Source: a virus. From it: 43,382 nt of DNA. Below are positions 66 through 43,382 of this stretch, one piece after another; the stretch's first letter is position 1; each line of letters begins with the position of its first letter. The DNA is taken from IMG/VR virus record IMGVR_UViG_3300017977_000054, positions 1 to 43,382 of that record, one strand, 5' to 3'. The position numbers and the translations under genes were made by a program. The notes beneath the pieces are model-generated. The model had not been told where the DNA came from. It saw only the letters and a list, made by a program, of their open reading frames with translations, and did no database searches.

Positions 66-575
66 ATGACTGAAGAACAGAACTACTTGATCGAAGCTGC
101 CCTATACCACGGGTTCGAAGTGTTAGACGACGACGCGACGCAGTTTAAGTGCACAGACGCTCAGATCGTCAGTTTACTATCCAGCCGCGGCCCCGCAGGA
201 CGCGACCCCCACCCTACAGTCGATTTTACGGACATGGTGGCCACTTTAGCTAAGCCCGGCGCAGACATCCTCGCGTCACTAACCCCCGAAAAGTGCCACA
301 TGTGGCACATGGCGTCCTGCGTACCGGGGGAAGCTGGCGAGTTGTTCGACGCGGTGAAAAAGCACTGTATCTACGGTAAAGAGCTAGACCGCGAAAACGT
401 TGTCGAGGAGCTCGGCGACTTAGAGTTCTACATGGAAGGCCTGCGCCAAGGCCTAGGTATAACCCGAAAGGAGACACTAGAAAGCAACATCGCTAAGCTC
501 GGTAAGCGCTACGCGGGGTTTAAGTACAGCGACGCTGCGGCCCAAAAACGCGCAGATAAAAACGGGGAGGGGTAG
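66..575 (+). CDS. MazG-like nucleotide pyrophosphohydrolase
   Basis: This 169-residue protein resembles the all-alpha MazG/phage NTP-PPase family, which hydrolyses (d)NTPs to monophosphate and pyrophosphate; phage members are thought to adjust nucleotide pools or host alarmone signalling. The metal-binding pattern is visible as GEAGE (88-92) followed by EELGDLE (114-120), the ExxE...ExxD arrangement of the family. The C-terminal part (about 130-160) is typical of phage versions, with an N-K-R-Y-type segment after the last helix. The N-terminal 70 residues are less recognisable. The ATG is preceded by GAGG six bases upstream, the first bases after the AACC tract. The next gene starts two bases after its stop, so the two are probably co-translated. 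If the molecule is circular, this gene lies downstream of the DNA polymerase gene. Confidence 0.8.
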   Translation: MTEEQNYLIEAALYHGFEVLDDDATQFKCTDAQIVSLLSSRGPAGRDPHPTVDFTDMVATLAKPGADILASLTPEKCHMWHMASCVPGEAGELFDAVKKHCIYGKELDRENVVEELGDLEFYMEGLRQGLGITRKETLESNIAKLGKRYAGFKYSDAAAQKRADKNGEG

Positions 576-3073: not shown

Positions 3074-4264
3074 TTAGTTAGGCGGTGAGTATAGCAGCCG
3101 GTCGGGCAGGTCAATCAGCACAGACGGACTCACATCATACTCAATGGGTTCATAGTATGTAGGTCGCAAAGCCCCTTGTGTCGCTCTAGACAACAGAGCA
3201 GCTTTAGTAGCCTGCACCCCCGCCCTGTCGGAAGTTCTAGATGTTGCTGCGCAAACTATAGCAGCAGCGACTAGAGGGGAGGCGTAACTTGTGCCGTTAC
3301 GTGGGCTAAAAGTCCCACCATCCAAAGTCCTCTGCTGGGCCTTTACCCATTGAGACGGAGCTACAATATCCACGGGAGCCCCCCAATTAGTTCCTAACTG
3401 ATTGCCAGTCCTATACGCGAAGTCTTTAATATCTGACCCACCGCAGATAATGCCGTCTGGGTCTGACTCCGTAGGATATTTATCAAGGGTATCTAGATCT
3501 TCTAAAGTATTCCCAGCCGAGAAAGTTACAGGCAGCCCCGCATCTATGAGATCAGACACTGCGGAAGATACCGCAGAAGTCATGCCAGCCCAAGACCAAA
3601 ACAAAGCGGCGGGGCGGCCCAACCCTGACCTAGAATTATAGTGTGACAGTACTGCGGCCATGGCTTCTATAGCCCTTGCGTCTGTCCCACCGTCCGACCC
3701 GTCACTAAACTTGAAAGAGAACCCCAACGCCTCCCTTGCTAAACCTACAGTAACCCCTAAAGCCACCGACATTATCTTAGTGCCGTGCCCTTGGCTGTCT
3801 AAGGGTGACGACGGTACCCCCGTGGCTACAAAAGGCTGAGTCACCCGCCCGCCAAACTCAGCTAGGGTGTGCTCGACACCGGTGTCTATGCAGTATAGGT
3901 CGCACCCACCCCCAAGGCGGGTAGCTTCAAATTTAGTTGATATAGGAAACGAATTGTTCGGCCACCTCGTAGGGTTTCTCCTGCGTATGACCCGGCAAGA
4001 TTGCCAAGACCCAGCCCCAGAAAATCCGTCTTCCTCTATGACTACGGACTGTGTCTCGTCCGGGCCGGCCATAGCCGAGCTTTCCTCTAGGATGCCCAAC
4101 AGTCCGCAACTCGCAGCCCACTCTACGGCCTCCGCGTCCGCCTCTAAGGTGAAGTGCCTGCGGAGCGGCGCGTGCCTAGTGTACTCGAGGGCGCGCCGGT
4201 TAAGTTCTACCTCGAACGCGTCGCCCGCCTTTTCGTCGTTAGCTACGGCTACAAAAAGTGTCAT
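3074..4264 (-). CDS. Subtilisin-like serine protease (peptidase S8) in the tail module
   Basis: The 396-residue protein contains a full subtilase catalytic set: Asp127 in CIDTGV, His160 in SQGHGT, oxyanion Asn252 in FSAGN and Ser326 in NGTSYASP. Spacing between them fits the S8 family. The first roughly 110 residues look like a propeptide-like segment with alternating hydrophobic and acidic residues; no signal peptide is present, so it is not predicted to be secreted by the Sec route. It lies between two fibre-like genes and starts four bases inside the end of the upstream gene (ATGA), so it is made with the tail. Known S8 proteins occur in some phage virions. Likely roles are maturation of a tail protein or digestion of host surface protein on entry; host processing during infection is an alternative. 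Confidence 0.88.
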   Translation of the reverse strand: MTLFVAVANDEKAGDAFEVELNRRALEYTRHAPLRRHFTLEADAEAVEWAASCGLLGILEESSAMAGPDETQSVVIEEDGFSGAGSWQSCRVIRRRNPTRWPNNSFPISTKFEATRLGGGCDLYCIDTGVEHTLAEFGGRVTQPFVATGVPSSPLDSQGHGTKIMSVALGVTVGLAREALGFSFKFSDGSDGGTDARAIEAMAAVLSHYNSRSGLGRPAALFWSWAGMTSAVSSAVSDLIDAGLPVTFSAGNTLEDLDTLDKYPTESDPDGIICGGSDIKDFAYRTGNQLGTNWGAPVDIVAPSQWVKAQQRTLDGGTFSPRNGTSYASPLVAAAIVCAATSRTSDRAGVQATKAALLSRATQGALRPTYYEPIEYDVSPSVLIDLPDRLLYSPPN

Positions 4265-24001: not shown

Positions 24002-25399
24002 TCAGCGACCTAGCGCCAATTTTAGCAAATCGCTGGTGGCGTCGGCCTCCCGCGGCCCGTTGGCCATGATGAACGCGTCGGCGTCGTTAGGGCTGTCTAC
24101 TTCACGCTTGGCTAAATCCTCTTTCGACTCGACTTTGACTCTGCCGTGCGCGTCGTAGTGCCGTCGGGGCGTACTGAGCTGCGTGACCAAGTTGCCTAGC
24201 CCTGGCATGTCCGAGCTAATGCTTATCAAGTCCTTAACCGCAAAAGCCTCGCCGTGCTTAATCGCGCTGTAGGTGTTGCGGAACCGGTCGGCCACGCCCC
24301 ACCACGCCTGCGCCTTTAGGTTGCTGAAAAATTCGCGGTTAGTCACCTGCTCCTCGGGCGTATCAATGTACAGGCCGTCCGGGTCGTACACCTTAGCGCC
24401 CGCTATGAACTTGGAGTAACTGACCGTTTCCGCAGCCCAGTAGTCCGCCACCCTAGCCTCGTTAATCTCCGCGAACTTAGGCCCCGCGCCAGCCCCTACG
24501 CCGATAGAGTCATAGTCTAGGTCCGCGCCGCGTTTTAGCGCAGCGTTGTAGGCCCTAGTGCAGCTCTGCAACAGTTCGTCCTCGCCGGCTTTCCAGTTCT
24601 CCCCCCACCGGGCTACGATCCCGTCCATATAGACCAGCGAGCACTTATCCGAGCCGCTGTCGGCGATGTCGAAGCCCATGCGCTTGGTGTCAAGGTTGCG
24701 TAGGCCTAGCACCTTGTGCGCGTCGATAGCCGCCTCGATCCACGAGCGTTTTATCACCACTTTGTCGTCGTCGGTACGCGGTACGCCAAGGTATATGTGT
24801 TCGTACTCCTCGTAGTCCTCACGCTTCAGGCGTTCAATCTTGCGGCGCATCGTGGAGGACAGAAACGGGTTCTCGTCGTAGTTGATGTGGCGGACGATAA
24901 CGCCGTTATCCGGGTCGTGCCTGAAGGTCTCTATGTAGTCCGACACTAGGTGCGGGTTGTACAGCATCCACGCCTCTGCACCCTCTTTCCGCAGTGTGGG
25001 CTCAATGACCGACCACTGCTCGGGGGTCAGGCCCTCCGCCTCTTCAATCCAACCGATGTCCGCACCCTCAAAGCCCTTAATCTCTCGGATGTTGCGCCGT
25101 ATGCCGTAGAAGTGGAACGAGCTTTTAGTGACCTTGTGCTCAATAGTGTTTTGCGTGATGTTGAACTCGTGGCGCATGCCAAACCGTTCAATCTGGGTGC
25201 ACAGGACGGCGTACACGCTGTCAGAGATTCGAACTTGAAACTGCCGCATGCACAGGACTTTAACCCTGTAGCGGGACGACAGGTAGACCAGAAAGCCTGC
25301 AGCGTCCCACGTCTTTGAGGAGGCCCGGCCCCCCTTCAGTATCTTGATGTCGGCCTTAGTGCGCCAGAATGGCTTTAGCGCGGGGTTAAGACTCGCCAT
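24002..25399 (-). CDS. Terminase large subunit
   Basis: I placed the start at ATG 25399 (465 residues), behind GAAGAGG and 14 bases inside the end of the small subunit gene; the reading frame extends further upstream but without good support. The ATPase has a Walker A-like KGGRASSKT (22-30), a Walker B-like DIGWIEEAE (114-122) and a coupling segment after it; the nuclease domain shows GFDIADSGSDK and the DADAFIMANG region near the C-terminus. It packages DNA into the prohead through the portal. The type is close to PBSX/P22-like terminases, but the packaging mode cannot be decided with confidence. Confidence 0.92.
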   Translation of the reverse strand: MASLNPALKPFWRTKADIKILKGGRASSKTWDAAGFLVYLSSRYRVKVLCMRQFQVRISDSVYAVLCTQIERFGMRHEFNITQNTIEHKVTKSSFHFYGIRRNIREIKGFEGADIGWIEEAEGLTPEQWSVIEPTLRKEGAEAWMLYNPHLVSDYIETFRHDPDNGVIVRHINYDENPFLSSTMRRKIERLKREDYEEYEHIYLGVPRTDDDKVVIKRSWIEAAIDAHKVLGLRNLDTKRMGFDIADSGSDKCSLVYMDGIVARWGENWKAGEDELLQSCTRAYNAALKRGADLDYDSIGVGAGAGPKFAEINEARVADYWAAETVSYSKFIAGAKVYDPDGLYIDTPEEQVTNREFFSNLKAQAWWGVADRFRNTYSAIKHGEAFAVKDLISISSDMPGLGNLVTQLSTPRRHYDAHGRVKVESKEDLAKREVDSPNDADAFIMANGPREADATSDLLKLALGR

Positions 25400-25985
25400 C
25401 GTCGCTCGCCTCTTCGCCGTAGAAGTCGTTGAAGCTCTTAGGCTTAACGTCGCCAGCGTCACCGCCTGTTAGCCCTAGGTTCTCTCTGAAGGCCTGCACG
25501 CTCGTTAAGTCGCCTATCAACTTCAAGGCCTGCAGCCGTGACGTCGCCTTGATCTTCACCTTTTCGACAACGCCCTTAGCGTTGCCCTCGGGCGTGATTA
25601 GCGCCTTACTGTCTACGGTGTACTCAGCAATGCAGTACCAATCGTCCTCTGTGGCCTCACTAAAGTCGTAGTAGGCCGCACCCCGCTCGTCCAACCGCAT
25701 GAACTTGCTAATGTTGAAGTCAGCAATAAGCCGCAGGCGTTCCGCAACGTACTGCGCGTTTAGCTCTGCCTTGTGGATAGCCTGCGCGGTTACATGTTCC
25801 ACGGCCGTGGCTATGTGGGGGCGTTTAAACAGCGCCGAGGCCCTGCAGTTAATTTGATGCTCTGACATCCCCGAGCAATCAAAAGCGCGGCGGTATGCTG
25901 CCGTTTTGTTGCGCGTAGGGTCCGACATGAAGTGCTGCAAAGCTGCGGTTTCTTCAGCCGTGTAGCTTTTAAAATTCACGGGCAA
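25386..25985 (-). CDS. Terminase small subunit
   Basis: The 199-residue protein lies directly upstream of TerL and shows the small-terminase layout: an N-terminal helix-turn-helix region (NKTAAYRRAFDCSGMSEHQI, 26-45), a central helix with HKAELNAQYVAERLRLIADF (outlined) and a C-terminal oligomerisation/tail. It would recognise the packaging site and load TerL. The start may be TTG 25985 or GTG 25979; both lie close to the ribosome binding site GAGAGG. It is the first gene of the leftward virion operon, downstream of the repeat-rich intergenic region. Confidence 0.85.
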   Translation of the reverse strand: MPVNFKSYTAEETAALQHFMSDPTRNKTAAYRRAFDCSGMSEHQINCRASALFKRPHIATAVEHVTAQAIHKAELNAQYVAERLRLIADFNISKFMRLDERGAAYYDFSEATEDDWYCIAEYTVDSKALITPEGNAKGVVEKVKIKATSRLQALKLIGDLTSVQAFRENLGLTGGDAGDVKPKSFNDFYGEEASDDGES

Positions 25986-26053
25986 TTTTCCTCTCTACAA
26001 AGGGTTTCTGTCCAACAGACTATACACCCTCCAGAACTAGCCGAAAAACGGTT

Positions 26054-26298
26054 TTGTAACGCTTGTAACGCTTCTTTCCTTTATTGTTTTATGAAAAACT
26101 ATATCTACCACTTAGTGCTATATATCTTCTATTTTCTCTTATACTAACCTTTTTATAGTTAGTAAGTGTTACAACGTTACAAGCCGCACCGCCCGTGGCC
26201 TGCAGCGATTTTTCAATGCGTTACACAAGCGTTACAGACCGTTACAACTCAAAAGACCGTTACAAGCCCCGTAATCTGTAACGCTTGTGTAACGTTAC
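26054..26298. repeat. Cluster of GTTACA/TGTAAC elements (candidate iterons/operators)
   Basis: Six GTTACA copies start at 26168, 26176, 26220, 26231, 26241 and 26259; four TGTAAC copies start at 26055, 26064, 26277 and 26288, and a variant GTTACG lies at 26294. The two left copies sit in tandem 9-mers TTGTAACGC (26054-26062 and 26063-26071). Bases 26219-26238 and 26275-26294 form a perfect 20-bp inverted repeat with a 36-base spacer. Between the two copies inside each arm there is an 11-bp spacing, one helical turn. Confidence 0.85.
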
Positions 26299-26325
26299 GG
26301 ATTTACCCGACCTAAAAATTAGTGC

Positions 26326-26354
26326 TTGACCGCGCCTAAAGTCTGTAATACTTT
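26326..26354 (+). promoter_or_regulatory. Possible early promoter
   Basis: TTGACC (26326-26331) resembles a -35 element and is followed by TGTAATACTTT. The best -10 candidates have imperfect spacing (TAATAC at 14 bases, TACTTT at 17 bases), so the exact core is uncertain. The position, 46 bases before the early operon ATG and just right of the repeat cluster, fits regulation by the repeats. Confidence 0.35.
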
Positions 26355-26399
26355 CTACTACCTGCACAAACTCAGACACCTACAGAGGGCCACAAAACC

Positions 26400-27042: not shown

Positions 27043-27476
27043 AAGAGCTAGCCGCCGGCGTCGCCACGCGGACCCCCGCACTTGGCCTGAACACCGAGCG
27101 CGTTATCAACTGCATGCGCAGCGCCCGCGAGAACAACCGGGTGTACGCCCTGCAGCAAGAGCTGTTGCTCAAGCAGGCACTTTGCGGGTACTCCGTGACC
27201 GCCCGCCCCTCGTGGTCTATGGAAGATCGCTTGCGGCTGTTTGTGGCGCACTACGCCGAACCGGGCACCCCCGTGCGCCTGCTCGTGCACCCTGGCGTGG
27301 CGATGAACTGGCGCCAAGTCGAAGGCGTGCTGATCCGCAGGCCCGACGTAAGCATGCTCCATCTCATGAACTCCGACGGCCTGGCTGCCGTGCTATCGCA
27401 AGGCCCGCGCACAATAGGCCTGAAAATTAAGCTAAACGTTAACCTATTGGGGGGCATGTGGGCGTTGAGTTACTAA
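27030..27476 (+). CDS. Hypothetical protein, GTG start
   Basis: A 148-residue product starting at GTG 27030 behind GGAGG, overlapping the previous gene by 13 bases. The sequence has a helical first half (LNTERVINCMRSARENNRVY) and an internal KIKLNVNLLGG segment. No family is recognised. Its C-terminus overlaps the start of the helix-turn-helix gene by 19 bases, a further sign of tightly coupled early translation. Reading in this frame is supported only by length, ribosome binding site and packing. Confidence 0.6.
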   Translation: MHPIEELAAGVATRTPALGLNTERVINCMRSARENNRVYALQQELLLKQALCGYSVTARPSWSMEDRLRLFVAHYAEPGTPVRLLVHPGVAMNWRQVEGVLIRRPDVSMLHLMNSDGLAAVLSQGPRTIGLKIKLNVNLLGGMWALSY

Positions 27477-27643
27477 CCACTCAAGAGGCCGCCGAAGAGC
27501 TGCGAGTCAGCCGGCGGACCCTCTACGAGTTGGTAAGAAAAGGCGAAATACGCTGGCTAGATTTAGGGCACAGGACCAAACGCATTACGCGTGCGGAGTT
27601 GAACAGGTATATAGCGAAGCTAAACGGGGCACCATGCAACTAG
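27458..27643 (+). CDS. Small helix-turn-helix DNA-binding protein (excisionase/MerR-like)
   Basis: The 61-residue product is almost entirely one winged helix-turn-helix of the HTH_17/excisionase type: LTTQEAAEELRVSRRTLYEL (6-25) is the DNA-binding motif, followed by a wing with GEIRWLDLGHRTKRI and a helix RAELNRYIAKL. Such proteins regulate transcription or help recombination. There is no integrase here, so an excisionase role is unlikely. It immediately precedes the primase-helicase, overlapping it by ten bases, and might bind the nearby repeat cluster or regulate the early promoter. GTG start with GGGGGG seven bases upstream. Confidence 0.8.
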   Translation: MGVELLTTQEAAEELRVSRRTLYELVRKGEIRWLDLGHRTKRITRAELNRYIAKLNGAPCN

Positions 27644-30153
27644 CTCAAGAATTAAAACAATTAGGGCTCGCAGCCTTCCCGTGCGCCGTGTCTTATGACG
27701 AGCGCAAGACCAAATGGGTGAAACGTCCGCTGACCGTGGACAAGGAGAGTTGGGCGGTAACAGGCCGCCGAGACATTAACGACCCCCGCGTACAGTGGGG
27801 CGGCTGTACCGTTTTAGGCCTACCAGTGCCCGAGGGCGTGGTCATTATTGACTTAGACCACTATGTCGACGGGTGCACCACAGAGGCTGTGGACGCCATA
27901 CTGGGGGTGCGGCTCGATTGGGGCGCGGCGCTGGTGCAAACCACCATCGGCGGGGGTGGGCACTACGCGTTTAGGGCGCCTCAAGGGTGGGGCGTCAACC
28001 AGTCCGACAGCATCGGCGGCCTAAAAGGCTTCGACACGCGAGTCGGGAGCAAAGGTTTTATCTGTAGCGGGCAGGGCTACGCCCCCTGTAACAGCTTTGG
28101 CGTTTACCGCCTGGCGTATCCCGATAGCCTGCCTCCGCTGCCCGATGAGTGCCGACCTACCCTAGAGAAGACGGTGCACGAGGTGCCCGAGAGTTCAAAA
28201 GAGCTGACCGACAGTGCCGACCGTGACGTGCCTACGCTGGTAGAGGCGTTGCGATTTGTGGACCCCACCACCCGTGAGACTTGGCGAAACGTAGGCTTTG
28301 CGCTTAAACATTACTTTCACGACGACGAGGGGACCGGCTACGCCATTTGGGACGCATGGAGTCGTGGCGAGTTCACTCCCGACGGTACCGAGCCCGAGGG
28401 ATATAACGCCGAGACCCAGCCGTCACAGTGGGCAGGGTTTGCGGTCCAACGCGGCGACCAGCCGACAATCACGGCGGGGTGGCTTTTTCACAACGCCATG
28501 CAGGGCGGGTGGCGCCCCCCAGCACGGTTTGACACTTCCGGCGCATTCGGCGCTAACGCATTAAAGGCCGACGCGTTTAATGACTTAGTGCAGCGAATTC
28601 TAGAAGAGGGTGCCGATATCCGCGCGGTAGAGGGCCTGCTAGAAGCGATACGTACAAGTGGCTGTAACGACATGCAGGCCTTGTTGTTGCGTAACGAGCT
28701 GAAGGCCATGATGCGCAGCGCCAAGCTGCTAGACAAGGCGACCTCAAGCCTGATAGACAAGGCCACGAACCCCGCAGGCACTAGCGCAGAGCTACCGGCG
28801 CACTCAGGCCAGTACAATAAAAACCACATGGAGAACGCCGAGCTGTTTTTATCAGCCCACTACCCTAACAACACCCTAATGCGCGCACAGCAGGTGTGGT
28901 ACGTGTACGACGGTAAGTGCTGGGTTGAAGTAGACGACGACGGCATAGACCACCAGCTTACGCGCGCCATGCAAGCAAGCCGGCCGCAGAAGTCGACAGT
29001 CAACGGCACCTACCAGACGCTAGCCAGCTTGTGCTACCGACCCGACGCCCGTATGAACGAGGACGCGCTTAGCGTGGTGTTGTTCCAGAACGGGGCGCTA
29101 GACCTGTACAGCGGCCAGTTACTGCCGCACGACCCGCGCTACATGACCACGAAAATAGTGCCCTACAACTACAACCCGAACGCCACAGCGCCGCAGTGGC
29201 TATCGTTTTTAGACGACGTGTTCGAAGGCGACGGCGAACGGGTGGCCCTGCTGCAAGAGTGGTTCGGCTACATGCTATCCCCGACCTACCAGTACCAGAA
29301 GATAATGCAACTACTCGGGCCGCCACGCTGCGGGAAGGGCACCATAGGCGCTGTGCTCCGGCAGCTAGTAGGCGACCAGAACTACAGCGGGTGCGCACTC
29401 AGCAGCTTTGCAAAGGACGACTTTCTCGACAGTATGCGTAACGTGACGGTGGCATTCAGTGGCGACACCGCTAAGACCGTCGGCCGTCATATCGTTGACG
29501 TAGTGACCGAGAACTTAAAGAAGATCAGCGGTAACGACGCCGTGGACTTCGCCCGTAAGTACAAGGCCCGTATGTCCTGCAAGCTCCCTTGCCGCATAAC
29601 GCTAGCGGCTAACCACGTGCCGCGCCTGTTTGACGACTCGGGTGCGTTGGCCGGCCGCCTGCTAGTGCTACCGTTCGAGGTCACATTCGAGAACAGAGAA
29701 GACCCTGGCCTGCTCGGCAAACTGACCGCAGAGCTTGAAGGCATAGCGGTGTGGGCGCTGCGCGGTTTGGCCCGTCTTAACGCCAACGGCCGCTTTACGC
29801 ATGCCACAGCCAGTGACGCCGACGTGCAGCTTATCGACGAGTCGTACAGCCCGCTTAAGCTGTTTATCAGTGCGCGCTGCAGACTCGGTACCGACGGCGT
29901 GATAACGGCTGCAGACCTGTACGACGTCTACCGTGCTTGGGCGGTCAATGAGCAAGAAGAGCGCATCTTGAGCCGTAAGGTGTTCGTCTCTTCATTCAAA
30001 GACGCAACCCGCGGCCGTGGTTGCAAGTACGGCCCCCACCGGACTGAAAGCGGCGTGTTCCGAGGGTTTAAAGGAGTGACGGTACTCGAAGAAGGCGAAC
30101 CCCGCACAGCAAGTGCGTTTAGGCCGGTCGTACATGACGGGGGTAAGGTATAA
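27634..30153 (+). CDS. Primase-helicase (PrimPol plus D5/SF3 helicase)
   Basis: The 839-residue protein is a bifunctional replication enzyme. The N-terminal primase-polymerase domain contains the IIDLDH metal motif (Asp73, Asp75) and GGGGHYAF (His110). A PriCT-like middle segment (FVDPTTRETWRNVGFALKHY, about 208-227) links to a D5-like N-terminal helicase region and an SF3 ATPase with GPPRCGKGT (562-570), a later NVTVAFSGD Walker B-like segment and a C-terminal LAANHVPRLFDDSGALAGR arginine-finger region (outlined). It would open the origin and prime DNA synthesis for the DNA polymerase encoded at 40969-43329. The HTH protein lies just upstream. The protein is of usual length for the family. 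Confidence 0.9.
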   Translation: MQLAQELKQLGLAAFPCAVSYDERKTKWVKRPLTVDKESWAVTGRRDINDPRVQWGGCTVLGLPVPEGVVIIDLDHYVDGCTTEAVDAILGVRLDWGAALVQTTIGGGGHYAFRAPQGWGVNQSDSIGGLKGFDTRVGSKGFICSGQGYAPCNSFGVYRLAYPDSLPPLPDECRPTLEKTVHEVPESSKELTDSADRDVPTLVEALRFVDPTTRETWRNVGFALKHYFHDDEGTGYAIWDAWSRGEFTPDGTEPEGYNAETQPSQWAGFAVQRGDQPTITAGWLFHNAMQGGWRPPARFDTSGAFGANALKADAFNDLVQRILEEGADIRAVEGLLEAIRTSGCNDMQALLLRNELKAMMRSAKLLDKATSSLIDKATNPAGTSAELPAHSGQYNKNHMENAELFLSAHYPNNTLMRAQQVWYVYDGKCWVEVDDDGIDHQLTRAMQASRPQKSTVNGTYQTLASLCYRPDARMNEDALSVVLFQNGALDLYSGQLLPHDPRYMTTKIVPYNYNPNATAPQWLSFLDDVFEGDGERVALLQEWFGYMLSPTYQYQKIMQLLGPPRCGKGTIGAVLRQLVGDQNYSGCALSSFAKDDFLDSMRNVTVAFSGDTAKTVGRHIVDVVTENLKKISGNDAVDFARKYKARMSCKLPCRITLAANHVPRLFDDSGALAGRLLVLPFEVTFENREDPGLLGKLTAELEGIAVWALRGLARLNANGRFTHATASDADVQLIDESYSPLKLFISARCRLGTDGVITAADLYDVYRAWAVNEQEERILSRKVFVSSFKDATRGRGCKYGPHRTESGVFRGFKGVTVLEEGEPRTASAFRPVVHDGGKV

Positions 30154-33545: not shown

Positions 33546-33572
33546 TTAACAACCAACGAGGTACGCGCCATG
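33541..33572 (+). repeat. Second copy of TTTAATTAACAAC plus ACGAGG leader
   Basis: TTTAATTAACAAC (33541-33553) matches 30210-30222, and ACGAGGTACGCGCCATG (33556-33572) matches 30235-30251 at 14 of 17 positions. Here the leader also contains AACCAAC, the word found in the terminal tracts and before the 37792 gene. The upstream gene ends inside this element. Confidence 0.75.
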
Positions 33573-34064
33573 AATAATTTACTTGAAAAACTCCGCCAAA
33601 TGGACGAGCAAGAAATCTACAGCCTAGTTTACTCGGACCCGCTAACTGGCGTCGGTAACCGCCGCGCCTATGACGAAGATGCACGAGGTCACTTGGCGAT
33701 AATCGACTTAGACTCGCTTAAGTACGTCAACGACACGTTAGGCCACCGCTACGGCGACCGCCAACTGCTAAACCTGGCATGCGTTTTAGTGCTGACTTTT
33801 GGCCACGACAACGTGTACCGTATTTCGGGCGACGAGTTCGCGGTTAAATTCGACGAGGCGCCAGACGACGCCCGATTCCGAAGCATGCACCGCCTTTTCC
33901 CTGGTTTTAGCTACGGCATTGGGCAGGACGTCGTAAGCGCCGACGCGGCTTTAAGCGCGCAAAAAGCACTACGAGAGCGTCTTGGTCTACGGGCTTCACG
34001 CGGGGAGCGCCCCGCTTGGTTCGAAAGTTTTCAAGCTGACTGCGAGCAAGTACGTGTCGCTTAA
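33570..34064 (+). CDS. Stand-alone GGDEF-domain protein (diguanylate cyclase-like)
   Basis: The 164-residue protein is essentially one GGDEF domain. It has DPLTGVGNRR (23-32), IIDLDSLKYVNDTLGHRYGD (44-63) with metal residue Asp46 and substrate-binding Asn54/Asp63 equivalents, and RISGDEF (84-90), an SGDEF variant of the active-site motif. YGIG (115-118) and SADAALSAQKALR are further domain marks. The inhibitory I-site would need R-x-x-D before the motif; it reads FGHD (77-80), so the arginine is missing. There is no signal, membrane segment or sensor domain. It may make c-di-GMP or another cyclic nucleotide, or be an inactive binding protein. It has its own duplicated leader. Confidence 0.85.
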   Translation: MNNLLEKLRQMDEQEIYSLVYSDPLTGVGNRRAYDEDARGHLAIIDLDSLKYVNDTLGHRYGDRQLLNLACVLVLTFGHDNVYRISGDEFAVKFDEAPDDARFRSMHRLFPGFSYGIGQDVVSADAALSAQKALRERLGLRASRGERPAWFESFQADCEQVRVA

Positions 34065-40388: not shown

Positions 40389-40982
40389 ATGAGACTTAAT
40401 AACGAACACCGGTTGAAGCTAGTCGCAGCGGTCCTCGAGGGGGCGGGTTTCGACAAGTGGCAGAAAGACCTAGACGCGCAGCGCCACCAATTAGCGGAGG
40501 ATGCGAACACCGACCTAATGGGCGGGCCGCAGAAAGCGGCGCAGCTGCGCAGCCAATACAAACGCATAAAGCGGGCCGCCGAAAAGTTCCCGCAGCTCGG
40601 GGTGTATTTCAATGGCGTGGCGGTGCAGGACGCCGTGAACGTTAACTTCGAGGGGCGCAGAGACTACCTGTACTACGCACCTGGGGTGCAAATTTTAAGC
40701 GTGCGTAATTGCTACCAGCGTCCTTCGGCTGAAATCACGGAGCGCTGGGAAGAGATAAACCGGCAGCAGGCAGACCTGTGCGAGTCGCGAAACGACCTCG
40801 AGCACCGCACGTTGGTCGCCTTAAAGCAATTTACGACTGTAGCTAAACTGCAGGAAGGCTGGCCAGAGATAGCCGAGTTTCTGCCCGAAGTGCTTGGCGA
40901 AAAGTCAACAAAAACCGGACTGCCTGCCGTGCGTCTCGATGAGCTTAACACCGCGCTAGGGCTACCACGTGCAAGCAAATAA
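40389..40982 (+). CDS. Nmad5-like protein (nucleotide modification associated?)
   Basis: The 197-residue protein begins MRLNNEHRLKLVAAVLEGA and has the pattern of the Nmad5 group: an N-terminal helix, a charged central helix with AAEKFPQ, then LVALKQFTTVAKLQEGWPEI (outlined) and the C-terminal VRLDELNTALGLP. Nmad5 proteins are associated with phage DNA modification clusters, but a direct catalytic role is not established. No methyltransferase, TET or hypermodification enzyme could be recognised in the window, so any modification pathway would have to use unknown genes. It overlaps the polymerase start by 14 bases. Confidence 0.65.
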   Translation: MRLNNEHRLKLVAAVLEGAGFDKWQKDLDAQRHQLAEDANTDLMGGPQKAAQLRSQYKRIKRAAEKFPQLGVYFNGVAVQDAVNVNFEGRRDYLYYAPGVQILSVRNCYQRPSAEITERWEEINRQQADLCESRNDLEHRTLVALKQFTTVAKLQEGWPEIAEFLPEVLGEKSTKTGLPAVRLDELNTALGLPRASK

Positions 40983-43329
40983 GCTGCTGCAGATACACGA
41001 CGAGAGCGACTGCCTTTTCGTAGCGGCGCCAGACTGCCGGTGCCGGCCTGTTAGTGCCGAGTGGTTGCCCGCGCGCAGCAAAATAGCGGTGGCTATGGGT
41101 TACTCGGAAGTCTTGCCGTCGGTCGACTTTGAGACCTACAGCGAAGCCGGCTACGTACTGCGAGACGGGAAGGTCAAGGGCGTCAAGGCGGACGGGAAAG
41201 GCGGGTTGCCGGTAGTCGGGACGCCTGTATACGCAGCGCACCCTAGCTGCGAAATACTTACCATGTCCTACAACCTGAAAGACGGGCAGGGCGTTCGACG
41301 TTGGCGTCCGGGGCAGCCACTACCGCTAGACCTACTCAAGTACGTGGCTAATGGTGGTCTGGTGGAAGCTTGGAACGTGACTTTCGAGTTTTGGATTTGG
41401 AACATGGTTGGTGCGCGCAAGCACGGGTGGCCGCCGCTTAAGCTCGAGCAATGCCGGTGCGCGATGGCTAAGTCCCGCCGGTACAGTTTGCCTGGCTCAC
41501 TCGACTTGGCGGCTAAAGTCCTAGGCACGCCAGAAAAAGACAAGCGGGGCAAAGACTTAGTGCGGAAGCTGACGCGCCCGCAAAAGTGGACTAAAGACCG
41601 CCCCTCATACCGATGGACGCGGGAAAACACGCCGCAGGATTTCGACGCACTCGACGTCTACTGTGACAAGGACGTGGTAGCCGAAGACAACGCCAGCGCG
41701 CATATACCCGACTTGACGCCGTACGAGCTGCACACGTGGATGGTCGACCAAACTATTAACGTGCGTGGGGTTCAAGTCGACGTGGCCGCCCTTAACGCGG
41801 CGCTAAGCATCCTCGCGCAAGCCGAAGAGAAATACGGCGAAGAGCTGCGGCAGGTGTCAGGCGGTAAGGTGTCCGGCGTTAACGCGGTGGCGCAGCTGCG
41901 AGAGTGGGCAGAGACCCGCGGTGTTAAGTTGCCGGACATAAAGAAAGAGACCGTAGACGAAGCGCTAGAAGGTGGCTACGGGCCGCTACCGGCCGACGTA
42001 CAGCGCGCGCTGCAGATACGCCATACCCTAGGCGCGGCGAACGTTAAGAAGTTGCGAACCCTCGCCCTGCAGGTGTCTAGCGACGGCCGCTTGCGCGACC
42101 AGTACACCTATTGCGGAGCCGACCGCACAGGCCGATGGTCCGCCGGTGGCGTACAACTGCAAAACATAACGGCGAAAGGCCCTGGCAGCGTGAAGTGCAA
42201 CCAGTGCGGCGGGTACCACGGCGCCGACTCGTTCGACATCGGGTGCCCTCGGTGCGGCAACTGGGTTGACCTCGACGGGCAGAAAGAGTGGAAAGTCGAG
42301 GCCGTCGAGTGCGCCATACAAGACGTGCTCACAGGTTCGCTAGAATGGGTCGAGCGGGTGTGGGGCGACCCCATCGCGCTTTTATGTGGCTGCCTTCGAG
42401 GGCTGTTCATCGCTGCGGAGGGTAAGCGCTTGCTGTGTTGCGACTTCTCGGCGGTGGAAGCTGTAGCCGCGGCCTGTCTGTCCCGCTGTGCGTGGCGCAT
42501 AGAGGTGTTTTCCGACCCCACCGCGTGCATCTACACCCAGTCGGCGAGCAAGATCACCGGAACGCCCCTCGAGGTGTACGTGCAGTACAAAAGACAGAAC
42601 GGCGGGAGCGACCACCCAGACCGTAAGAAGATAGGGAAAGTCGCAGAGCTGGCCAGCGGGTACGGCGGCTGGGTTAACGCCTGGCTGGCATTCGGCGCCG
42701 AAATGAGCGAAGAGGCTATTAAAGCCGCTATTCTCGCGTGGCGGGCTGCGTCTCCTGAGATTGTAGAAATGTGGGGCGGGCAGTGGCGATGGTGTGGCCC
42801 CGGCAAGTGGGACTTCGCGCCGGAAATGTTCGGGCTAGAAGGTGCCGCCATTCAAGCCGTGCTCAACCCCGGCAAGTGTTTTAGCCACATAGACATTACC
42901 TACGGAGTGAAAGACGACGTACTTATGTGTCGCTTGCCGTCCGGGCGGTACCTCAACTACCACAGGCCGCGGGCCGTCTTAGGGCAGGACCGGCTAGGGC
43001 GAACGGCCTACCAACTGACTTTCGAAGGGTACAACTCGAACAGCGCCAAAGGGCCGGTAGGTTGGCACCGAATGGAGACCTTCGGCGGGCGGCTGTTCGA
43101 GAACGTCGTGCAGGCCGTTAGCTGCGACTTGCAGGGCGACGCGCTTAAACGCCTAGAGGCCCGCGGCTACCCTGTCGTAATGCACACCCACGACGAGGCG
43201 ACATGCGAGCTGCCTTTCGGTCAAGGGTCACTGGCCGAAATGTTAGAGATTATGTCCGAGCGCCCTAGCTGGGCGAACTGGTGGCCTCTCCGCGCTGACG
43301 GGTGGGAGCACCACCGCTACCAAAAATAA
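40969..43329 (+). CDS. Family A DNA polymerase with inserted zinc ribbon
   Basis: The 786-residue protein (GTG start with AGGG upstream; an alternative ATG at 41095 is also possible) has a 3'-5' exonuclease domain (SVDFETYSE and the YCDKDVVAE motif) and a family A polymerase domain with GRWSAGGVQLQNI, motif A CCDFSAVEA (Asp492), motif B-like DRKKIGKVAELASGYGG and motif C HTHDEAT (His741-Asp742-Glu743). An extra segment between the GRW motif and motif A holds CNQC and CPRC (Cys410, 413, 426, 429), a zinc-ribbon-like insertion not normally found in such enzymes. It replicates the phage genome. Its stop runs directly into the right AACC tract. Confidence 0.93.
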   Translation: MQANKLLQIHDESDCLFVAAPDCRCRPVSAEWLPARSKIAVAMGYSEVLPSVDFETYSEAGYVLRDGKVKGVKADGKGGLPVVGTPVYAAHPSCEILTMSYNLKDGQGVRRWRPGQPLPLDLLKYVANGGLVEAWNVTFEFWIWNMVGARKHGWPPLKLEQCRCAMAKSRRYSLPGSLDLAAKVLGTPEKDKRGKDLVRKLTRPQKWTKDRPSYRWTRENTPQDFDALDVYCDKDVVAEDNASAHIPDLTPYELHTWMVDQTINVRGVQVDVAALNAALSILAQAEEKYGEELRQVSGGKVSGVNAVAQLREWAETRGVKLPDIKKETVDEALEGGYGPLPADVQRALQIRHTLGAANVKKLRTLALQVSSDGRLRDQYTYCGADRTGRWSAGGVQLQNITAKGPGSVKCNQCGGYHGADSFDIGCPRCGNWVDLDGQKEWKVEAVECAIQDVLTGSLEWVERVWGDPIALLCGCLRGLFIAAEGKRLLCCDFSAVEAVAAACLSRCAWRIEVFSDPTACIYTQSASKITGTPLEVYVQYKRQNGGSDHPDRKKIGKVAELASGYGGWVNAWLAFGAEMSEEAIKAAILAWRAASPEIVEMWGGQWRWCGPGKWDFAPEMFGLEGAAIQAVLNPGKCFSHIDITYGVKDDVLMCRLPSGRYLNYHRPRAVLGQDRLGRTAYQLTFEGYNSNSAKGPVGWHRMETFGGRLFENVVQAVSCDLQGDALKRLEARGYPVVMHTHDEATCELPFGQGSLAEMLEIMSERPSWANWWPLRADGWEHHRYQK

Positions 43330-43382
43330 CCAACCAACCAACCAACCAACCAACCAACCAACCAACCAACCAACCAACCAAC
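43328..43382. repeat. Right terminal AACC tetranucleotide tandem repeat
   Basis: From the last two bases of the polymerase TAA stop to the window end, 55 bases are an uninterrupted AACC period. The final 54 bases match the first 54 of the window. As both ends are simple repeats, overlap does not by itself prove circularity. No gene is present in the tract. Confidence 0.95.

Follow-up and report, generated by a model that had tools for sequence, protein, structure and literature searches.

A probable iteron replication origin beside a phage PrimPol-D5 primase-helicase gene, with fixed geometry and changing words among relatives

Positions 26055-26294 of the virus record IMGVR_UViG_3300017977_000054 (the window, which is the whole record of 43,382 bases) are probably an iteron replication origin whose repeats a PrimPol-D5 primase-helicase reads with its C-terminal winged helix; we put the probability of this reading at roughly 0.8. 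These positions hold an array of GTTACA repeats, the geometry of the array is conserved among relatives in which its word changes, the word is associated with the C-terminal part of the primase-helicase, and this part is modelled as a winged helix. In the mechanism that we envision, the primase-helicase encoded at 27634-30153 would recognize the GTTACA iterons through its P4/RFX-type winged helix, assemble on the fixed-geometry array, open the AT-rich stretch between two iteron pairs and load itself as a ring helicase. The primers that it lays could then be extended by a family-A polymerase (40969-43329). Binding, melting, loading and initiation may also be accompanied by feedback on the early promoter, which we consider probable. 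A literature search, for the most part without reach into subscription papers, found no published description of this origin.

The array in the window

The ten GTTACA/TGTAAC elements that an initial annotation had noted are present as exact copies in 239 bp of non-coding DNA (26055-26293), with forward copies at 26168, 26176, 26220, 26231, 26241 and 26259 and reverse copies at 26055, 26064, 26277 and 26288. The array sits between terS, which lies 70 bp away on the minus strand, and a divergent early operon on the plus strand, 1.3 kb upstream of the primase-helicase gene. The features are as follows:

25386-25985, minus: terS, small terminase subunit; divergent neighbour, outside the origin
26055-26069, minus: left iteron pair, two TGTAAC 9 bp apart
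26072-26167: AT-rich gap between the pairs, 74% A+T; candidate unwinding element
26168-26181, plus: right iteron pair, two GTTACA 8 bp apart
26182-26219: spacer from the right pair to the triple, 44 bp core to core
26219-26238, plus: left arm of the perfect 20-bp inverted repeat
26220-26264, plus: four forward iterons (26220, 26231, 26241, 26259)
26275-26294, minus: right arm of the perfect 20-bp inverted repeat
26277-26293, minus: reverse iteron pair, 11 bp apart
26326-26331, plus: TTGACC, possible -35 of the early operon (weak; missed by the consensus scan)
from 26400, plus: early operon, opening with three unknown genes, then the HTH_17 gene, then the primase-helicase gene
27458-27643, plus: HTH_17 protein (excisionase/MerR-like), 61 residues; conserved partner gene that overlaps the primase-helicase start
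27634-30153, plus: PrimPol - PriCT-2 - D5_N - SF3 primase-helicase, 839 residues; proposed initiator
29845-30099, plus: C-terminal winged helix (residues about 738-822); proposed iteron reader
40969-43329: family-A polymerase, weak Pfam score

No other hexamer in the window is as clustered as GTTACA. When the window was randomized 60 times with a first-order model, the best hexamer reached at most 6 per 240 bp, and 2000 randomized versions of the intergenic stretch 25986-26399 contained a mean of 0.53 and a maximum of 4 GTTACA, compared with the 10 observed. Since the count over the whole window is near expectation (26 versus 21.2), with no over-representation, the unusual feature is the clustering, and no second GTTACA cluster was found elsewhere in the 43,382-base record.

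The inverted repeat described in the initial annotation is indeed perfect along its 20-bp arms, which are separated by 36 nt. No other perfect 20-bp pair in the window has a loop of 60 or less, and 2000 shuffles of the stretch produced none. Each arm holds two iterons, forward in the left arm and, mirroring them, reverse in the right, and the 11-bp spacing noted inside the arms is correct (26220 to 26231, 26277 to 26288). As a single strand the repeat folds strongly (z -6.4), which is due to the mirrored iterons. The AT-rich core is likewise real: the most AT-rich 100-mers of the window (75-76 A+T) begin at 26072-26083, and the gap, which spans 104 bp core to core, includes this AT maximum and is flanked by iterons on both sides. 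The GC skew check that had been proposed does not decide the matter: shifts in skew and AT skew were seen near 26 kb but, since they coincide with a switch of coding strand, are uninformative for the origin.

In a profile search, the primase-helicase scores for Prim-Pol, PriCT-2, D5_N and DUF5906. Downstream of its gene lie genes for a ResIII/DEAD helicase, a DUF2800 nuclease-like protein and the family-A polymerase. The polymerase gene is adjoined by a gene for an Nmad5 protein (40389-40982; nucleotide-modification-associated domain), and modified DNA is thus possible. The phage also encodes a GGDEF-domain protein (33570-34064; Pfam E 3.5e-12), of which locus L017 has a relative, and a subtilase-family (Peptidase_S8) protein inside the minus-strand gene block (3074-4264, minus). 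The record carries the same 54 bases of an (ACCA)n tetranucleotide repeat at both ends (1-54 and 43329-43382), and so the genome is probably circular or permuted, with the contig broken inside a single tandem repeat. A megablast search of the window against phages returned no match.

Arrays among relatives of the primase-helicase

Relatives were collected by scans with the primase-helicase. In viral contigs these found 17 loci at first and 76 once an alignment was used; genome contigs added three, one of which was a repeat (L295 is the 42,718-base contig of L013). Cultured relatives, among them Alteromonas phage R9Y1 and Aeromonas phage AeroV_348, were drawn from a phage collection. The last two viral scans for more loci with variant words yielded no new contig. 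An array was recognized in 29 of 33 primase-helicase loci, mostly just upstream of the operon of that gene, a count that includes near-duplicates and three loci called by eye (L242, L244 and L300). Words and array limits in the relatives were likewise assigned by eye from the sequence. Hexamer cluster searches are misled at L017:4676-5161, where coding repeats of GGACTGC-type units lie beside the HTH gene. On reading, no recognizable array was found in L224, L225, L247 or L250.

Two of these loci encode a separate protein 2-3 kb upstream of the primase-helicase (L224:892-1803 and L225:703-1656) that aligns to the C-terminal domain of the window's protein at about 37% and, judged by reading the sequence, apparently contains two winged-helix copies followed by an HTH-like stretch. 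In L224 its gene starts next to an AT-rich stretch. Perhaps this protein is a regulator that competes for the origin.

The layout was measured at 22 loci. The arrangement seen most frequently has a reverse pair separated by an AT-rich gap from a forward pair with a spacing of 8-9 bp, and nine loci share the full layout of two reverse iterons, AT gap, two forward iterons, 43-45 bp and three forward iterons. Within these nine, the AT gap measures 91-126 bp, the pair is 8-9 bp apart, the distance to the triple is 43 to 45 bp, and the steps within the triple are 11-12 and 9-12 bp. The word is GTTACA in five loci and GTCACA, GTGACA, CGTAGT and GTGGTCA in one each. The DNA between the iterons has a median pairwise identity of 0.35-0.36, taking the better of two ungapped placements. 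Among the other 13 loci, eight have the AT gap and right pair (L006, L010, L011, L014, L015, L222, L239 and L298), L221 is without the doublet, L243 and L244 are without a qualifying gap, and L017 and L249, which are of the VapE type, have their own arrangement. Conserved spacing in relatives, one of the checks proposed at the outset, is thus found for the full layout in 9 of 22 loci, but neither the triple nor the inverted repeat is universal. Perfect inverted repeats of at least 20 bp occur in two of the 12 relatives searched (22 bp in L009 and 25 bp in L232, with letters that differ from the window's) and are shorter, imperfect or absent in the other ten.

Constant spacing with changing letters is what one would expect if the protein assembly stayed the same and only the part that reads the DNA changed, and the suggestion of iterons with an unwinding element fits the arrays and their layout in relatives well. 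A further idea, which we hold at a little under even odds, is that the fixed geometry and swapped letters reflect a natural set of orthogonal initiator-origin pairs, each with a 6-7 bp word that is read by a winged helix of the RFX/P4 type. Neither TTATNCACA nor TTWTNCAMA, as DnaA boxes, occurs in the array regions of the nine full-layout loci. A hairpin in the 38-41-nt spacer was also considered and is unsupported, as folding of 12 loci gave z-scores of -1.34 to 1.05.

Arrays also occur in more distant relatives. Eight distant SF3 loci (L252, L257, L262, L278, L283, L284, L294 and L297) have dense arrays, each with its own word, that overlap or come after the end of the helicase gene; these eight were chosen for their dense arrays, and many other distant loci had none. 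Given this position, the array goes with the helicase gene rather than with one promoter position.

GTTACA itself is found with unrelated initiators. In a DNA pattern scan of viral contigs, GTTACA arrays (at least five in 300 bp) were present in 58 among at least 119 loci (L100-L218 as listed), compared with 0 of 39 and 3 of 46 loci for two control words of the same make. Among the 58 array-bearing loci listed, one protein family is present in 20 and another in nine. One tested member of the 20-locus family is DnaD-like and another scores as a replication initiation protein; the tested member of the nine-locus family weakly matches a replisome organizer (E 2e-4). Other listed array-bearing loci carry DUF927 or primases, and some of the listed arrays sit inside an initiator-like gene. 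Of these 58 records, 38 were searched, with D5_N found in two, DUF927 in four (two over the cut-off) and VapE-like domains in none. The proposal that GTTACA means a D5 helicase was therefore rejected, and GTTACA seems to be a favoured iteron word that several unrelated phage initiators have reached. This weakens inference from the word alone and leaves inference from layout and neighbourhood unaffected.

The reader of the word and rival readings

Homology and the modelled fold place a gene for a predicted self-loading helicase with a C-terminal DNA-binding domain near the array. The helicase half matches the SaPI5 primase-helicase 7ola in profile (E 2.4e-31) and in fold, and the AlphaFold2 model of residues 385-839 (pLDDT 87.7, pTM 0.78), together with profile searches, also points to ASFV PrimPol. 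The model of residues 705-839, with a pLDDT of about 90 over the winged helix, matches RFX5 (Z 10.5), RFX1 on X-box DNA (1dp7; Z 10.4), ASFV PrimPol (Z 9.5) and the P4 origin-binding domain 1ka8 (Z 9.3, rmsd 2.7, 82 residues); the next-best match outside this group is ORC-Cdc6 (Z 6.5). Weak or absent fold hits were excluded as evidence.

Both the HTH protein at 27458 and the primase-helicase had been named as possible binding partners, and the comparison favours the second. Over 190 pairs of 20 loci, similarity in the C-terminal 110 residues of the primase-helicase predicts a shared word with an AUC of 0.91, compared with 0.82 for the SF3 core, 0.69 for the PrimPol part and 0.47 for the HTH protein, values that are descriptive only since locus pairs are mutually dependent. 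Leaving out L017 and L249 gives 0.88 for the C-terminal part. The set omits near-duplicates (L013, L225, L298-L300), the truncated L273, the array-less L224, L225, L247 and L250, and the loci without an HTH_17 hit (L012, L242, L248 and L301).

A modular swap points the same way. L017, L247 and L249 have a VapE-like helicase half and keep the same PrimPol half and HTH gene. The array word is GGGGTACAA in L017 and GGTGC in L249, with both arrays in the same place beside terS; L247 has no recognizable array. The HTH gene is thus retained where the word differs along with the helicase half, which speaks against the HTH protein as the reader. This swap of helicase half together with word is a better argument than the AUC for the helicase as the putative reader.

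Within the winged helix, residue T/S792 is replaced by V or L in the GTCACA and GTGACA phages alone, and the wing residues H/Q802-R803 are kept with words ending in ACA and changed in the CGTAGT and GTGGTCA phages. Residues 792 and 802-803 are candidate specificity residues and, with one phage per variant word, only a lead.

If the initiator reads the iterons, does it also control its own expression? An array that is both origin and autoregulatory operator, at which the initiator would start replication and repress its own operon, is compatible with the best explanation, and we regard it as a serious possibility that falls slightly short of an even chance. The array lies upstream of the initiator's operon, a TTGAC motif follows just 3′ of the array in six of the nine full-layout loci, and in L003 one iteron falls inside the TTGAC-type motif region. 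There is also a precedent for coupled control in pRN1, in which a small repressor gene is paired with a PrimPol-helicase gene (PMC4234260). However, a promoter consensus scan called no promoter at the array, returning only a minus-strand site at shuffle level. The cooperative operator suggested in the initial annotation thus survives as a possible second role, on account of the TTGAC motifs, without a promoter detected by the consensus scan.

It is improbable that the array is chiefly an operator whose repeats are bound by the HTH_17 protein in order to regulate the divergent early and late promoters. The HTH_17 gene does lie upstream of the primase-helicase gene in 29 of 33 loci, mostly overlapping its start, the window's array is between divergent genes, and the TTGAC motifs just described would suit such a role. 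But similarity of the HTH proteins fails to predict the word: few HTH proteins resemble the window's as much as that of L017 (0.40), yet L017 has a different word, and phages that share the window's word have HTH proteins scoring 0.14-0.46. Moreover, L012, L248 and L301 have arrays without an HTH_17 hit, and the arrays of the distant relatives are at or past the end of the helicase gene.

A terminase recognition site (pac or cosB) read by TerS is far less probable still. Although terS is the divergent left neighbour in the window and many relatives, the left neighbour varies among array-bearing loci, which makes a packaging site unlikely: in L004 it is a methyltransferase that has a ParB-like part, L299 and L300 have a minor tail protein there and L221, L239 and L301, by eye, a minor-tail-like protein, with no family for L005 and L009. 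Further, the window's TerS is about as similar to that of L003, which has the same word (41.7%), as to that of L017, which has another (44.1%). Repeats are prone to artefacts, but equivalent arrays in independent contigs and in the sequenced isolate R9Y1 make low-complexity DNA or an assembly artefact a negligible explanation.

D5/SF3 primase-helicases are common in phages, satellites and large DNA viruses, and how their winged helices choose DNA is known in few cases. One layout with at least five words and natural domain swaps provides a comparison set for winged-helix choice and for origin-initiator compatibility. It also suggests how origins could be located in phage contigs that lack annotation, namely by a pair - AT - pair layout beside a helicase gene and not by a fixed sequence.

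Comparison with known systems

The cultured relative Alteromonas phage R9Y1 (OM287554) has a GTTACA array and a similar order of terS, array, HTH gene and primase-helicase gene; a search of the available text of its description (PMC9430817) returned no passage on a replication origin or iterons. Among eukaryotic proteins, RFX factors share the winged-helix fold of the initiator's C-terminal domain, and X-box half sites include GTTACC (PMC2375033). The resemblance of GTTACC to GTTACA is probably convergence or chance and, because the word changes among relatives that share this domain, is only a lead.

In the crenarchaeal plasmid pRN1, the gene for a small DNA-binding protein, orf56, is followed by orf904, which encodes a PrimPol-helicase with a C-terminal winged helix (PMC4234260). 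This pair and its winged helix resemble the HTH_17 and primase-helicase genes of the phage. In contrast, the pRN1 origin is downstream, with a stem-loop and without iterons, whereas the phage array is upstream and has iterons.

The candidate origin probably works like the SaPI and P4 origins. The alpha protein of phage P4 is, as here, a fused primase-helicase with a C-terminal winged helix, although its primase is of the Toprim type rather than a PrimPol. P4 has a second iteron region, crr, away from the first. No second array was found in the window, and by this mark the phage origin is not a P4 replicon.

Also close are the SaPI Rep/ori and SCCmec Cch2 systems, in which self-loading helicases act with iteron origins; the iterons lie near the helicase gene, likewise here, and the SaPI5 primase-helicase is homologous to the helicase half of the phage protein. 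The C-terminal domain of the SaPI/SCCmec helicase is the reported iteron reader, and SaPI origins lie directly downstream of rep (PMC7581432). The phage array is instead upstream of its helicase gene, between divergent operons, and is therefore not a strict SaPI-type ori, whereas the arrays at the helicase gene end in the distant SF3 relatives match the SaPI arrangement described there. Compared with SaPI and SCCmec, the phage couples an HTH_17 gene to its initiator, and its relatives swap the word at constant geometry.
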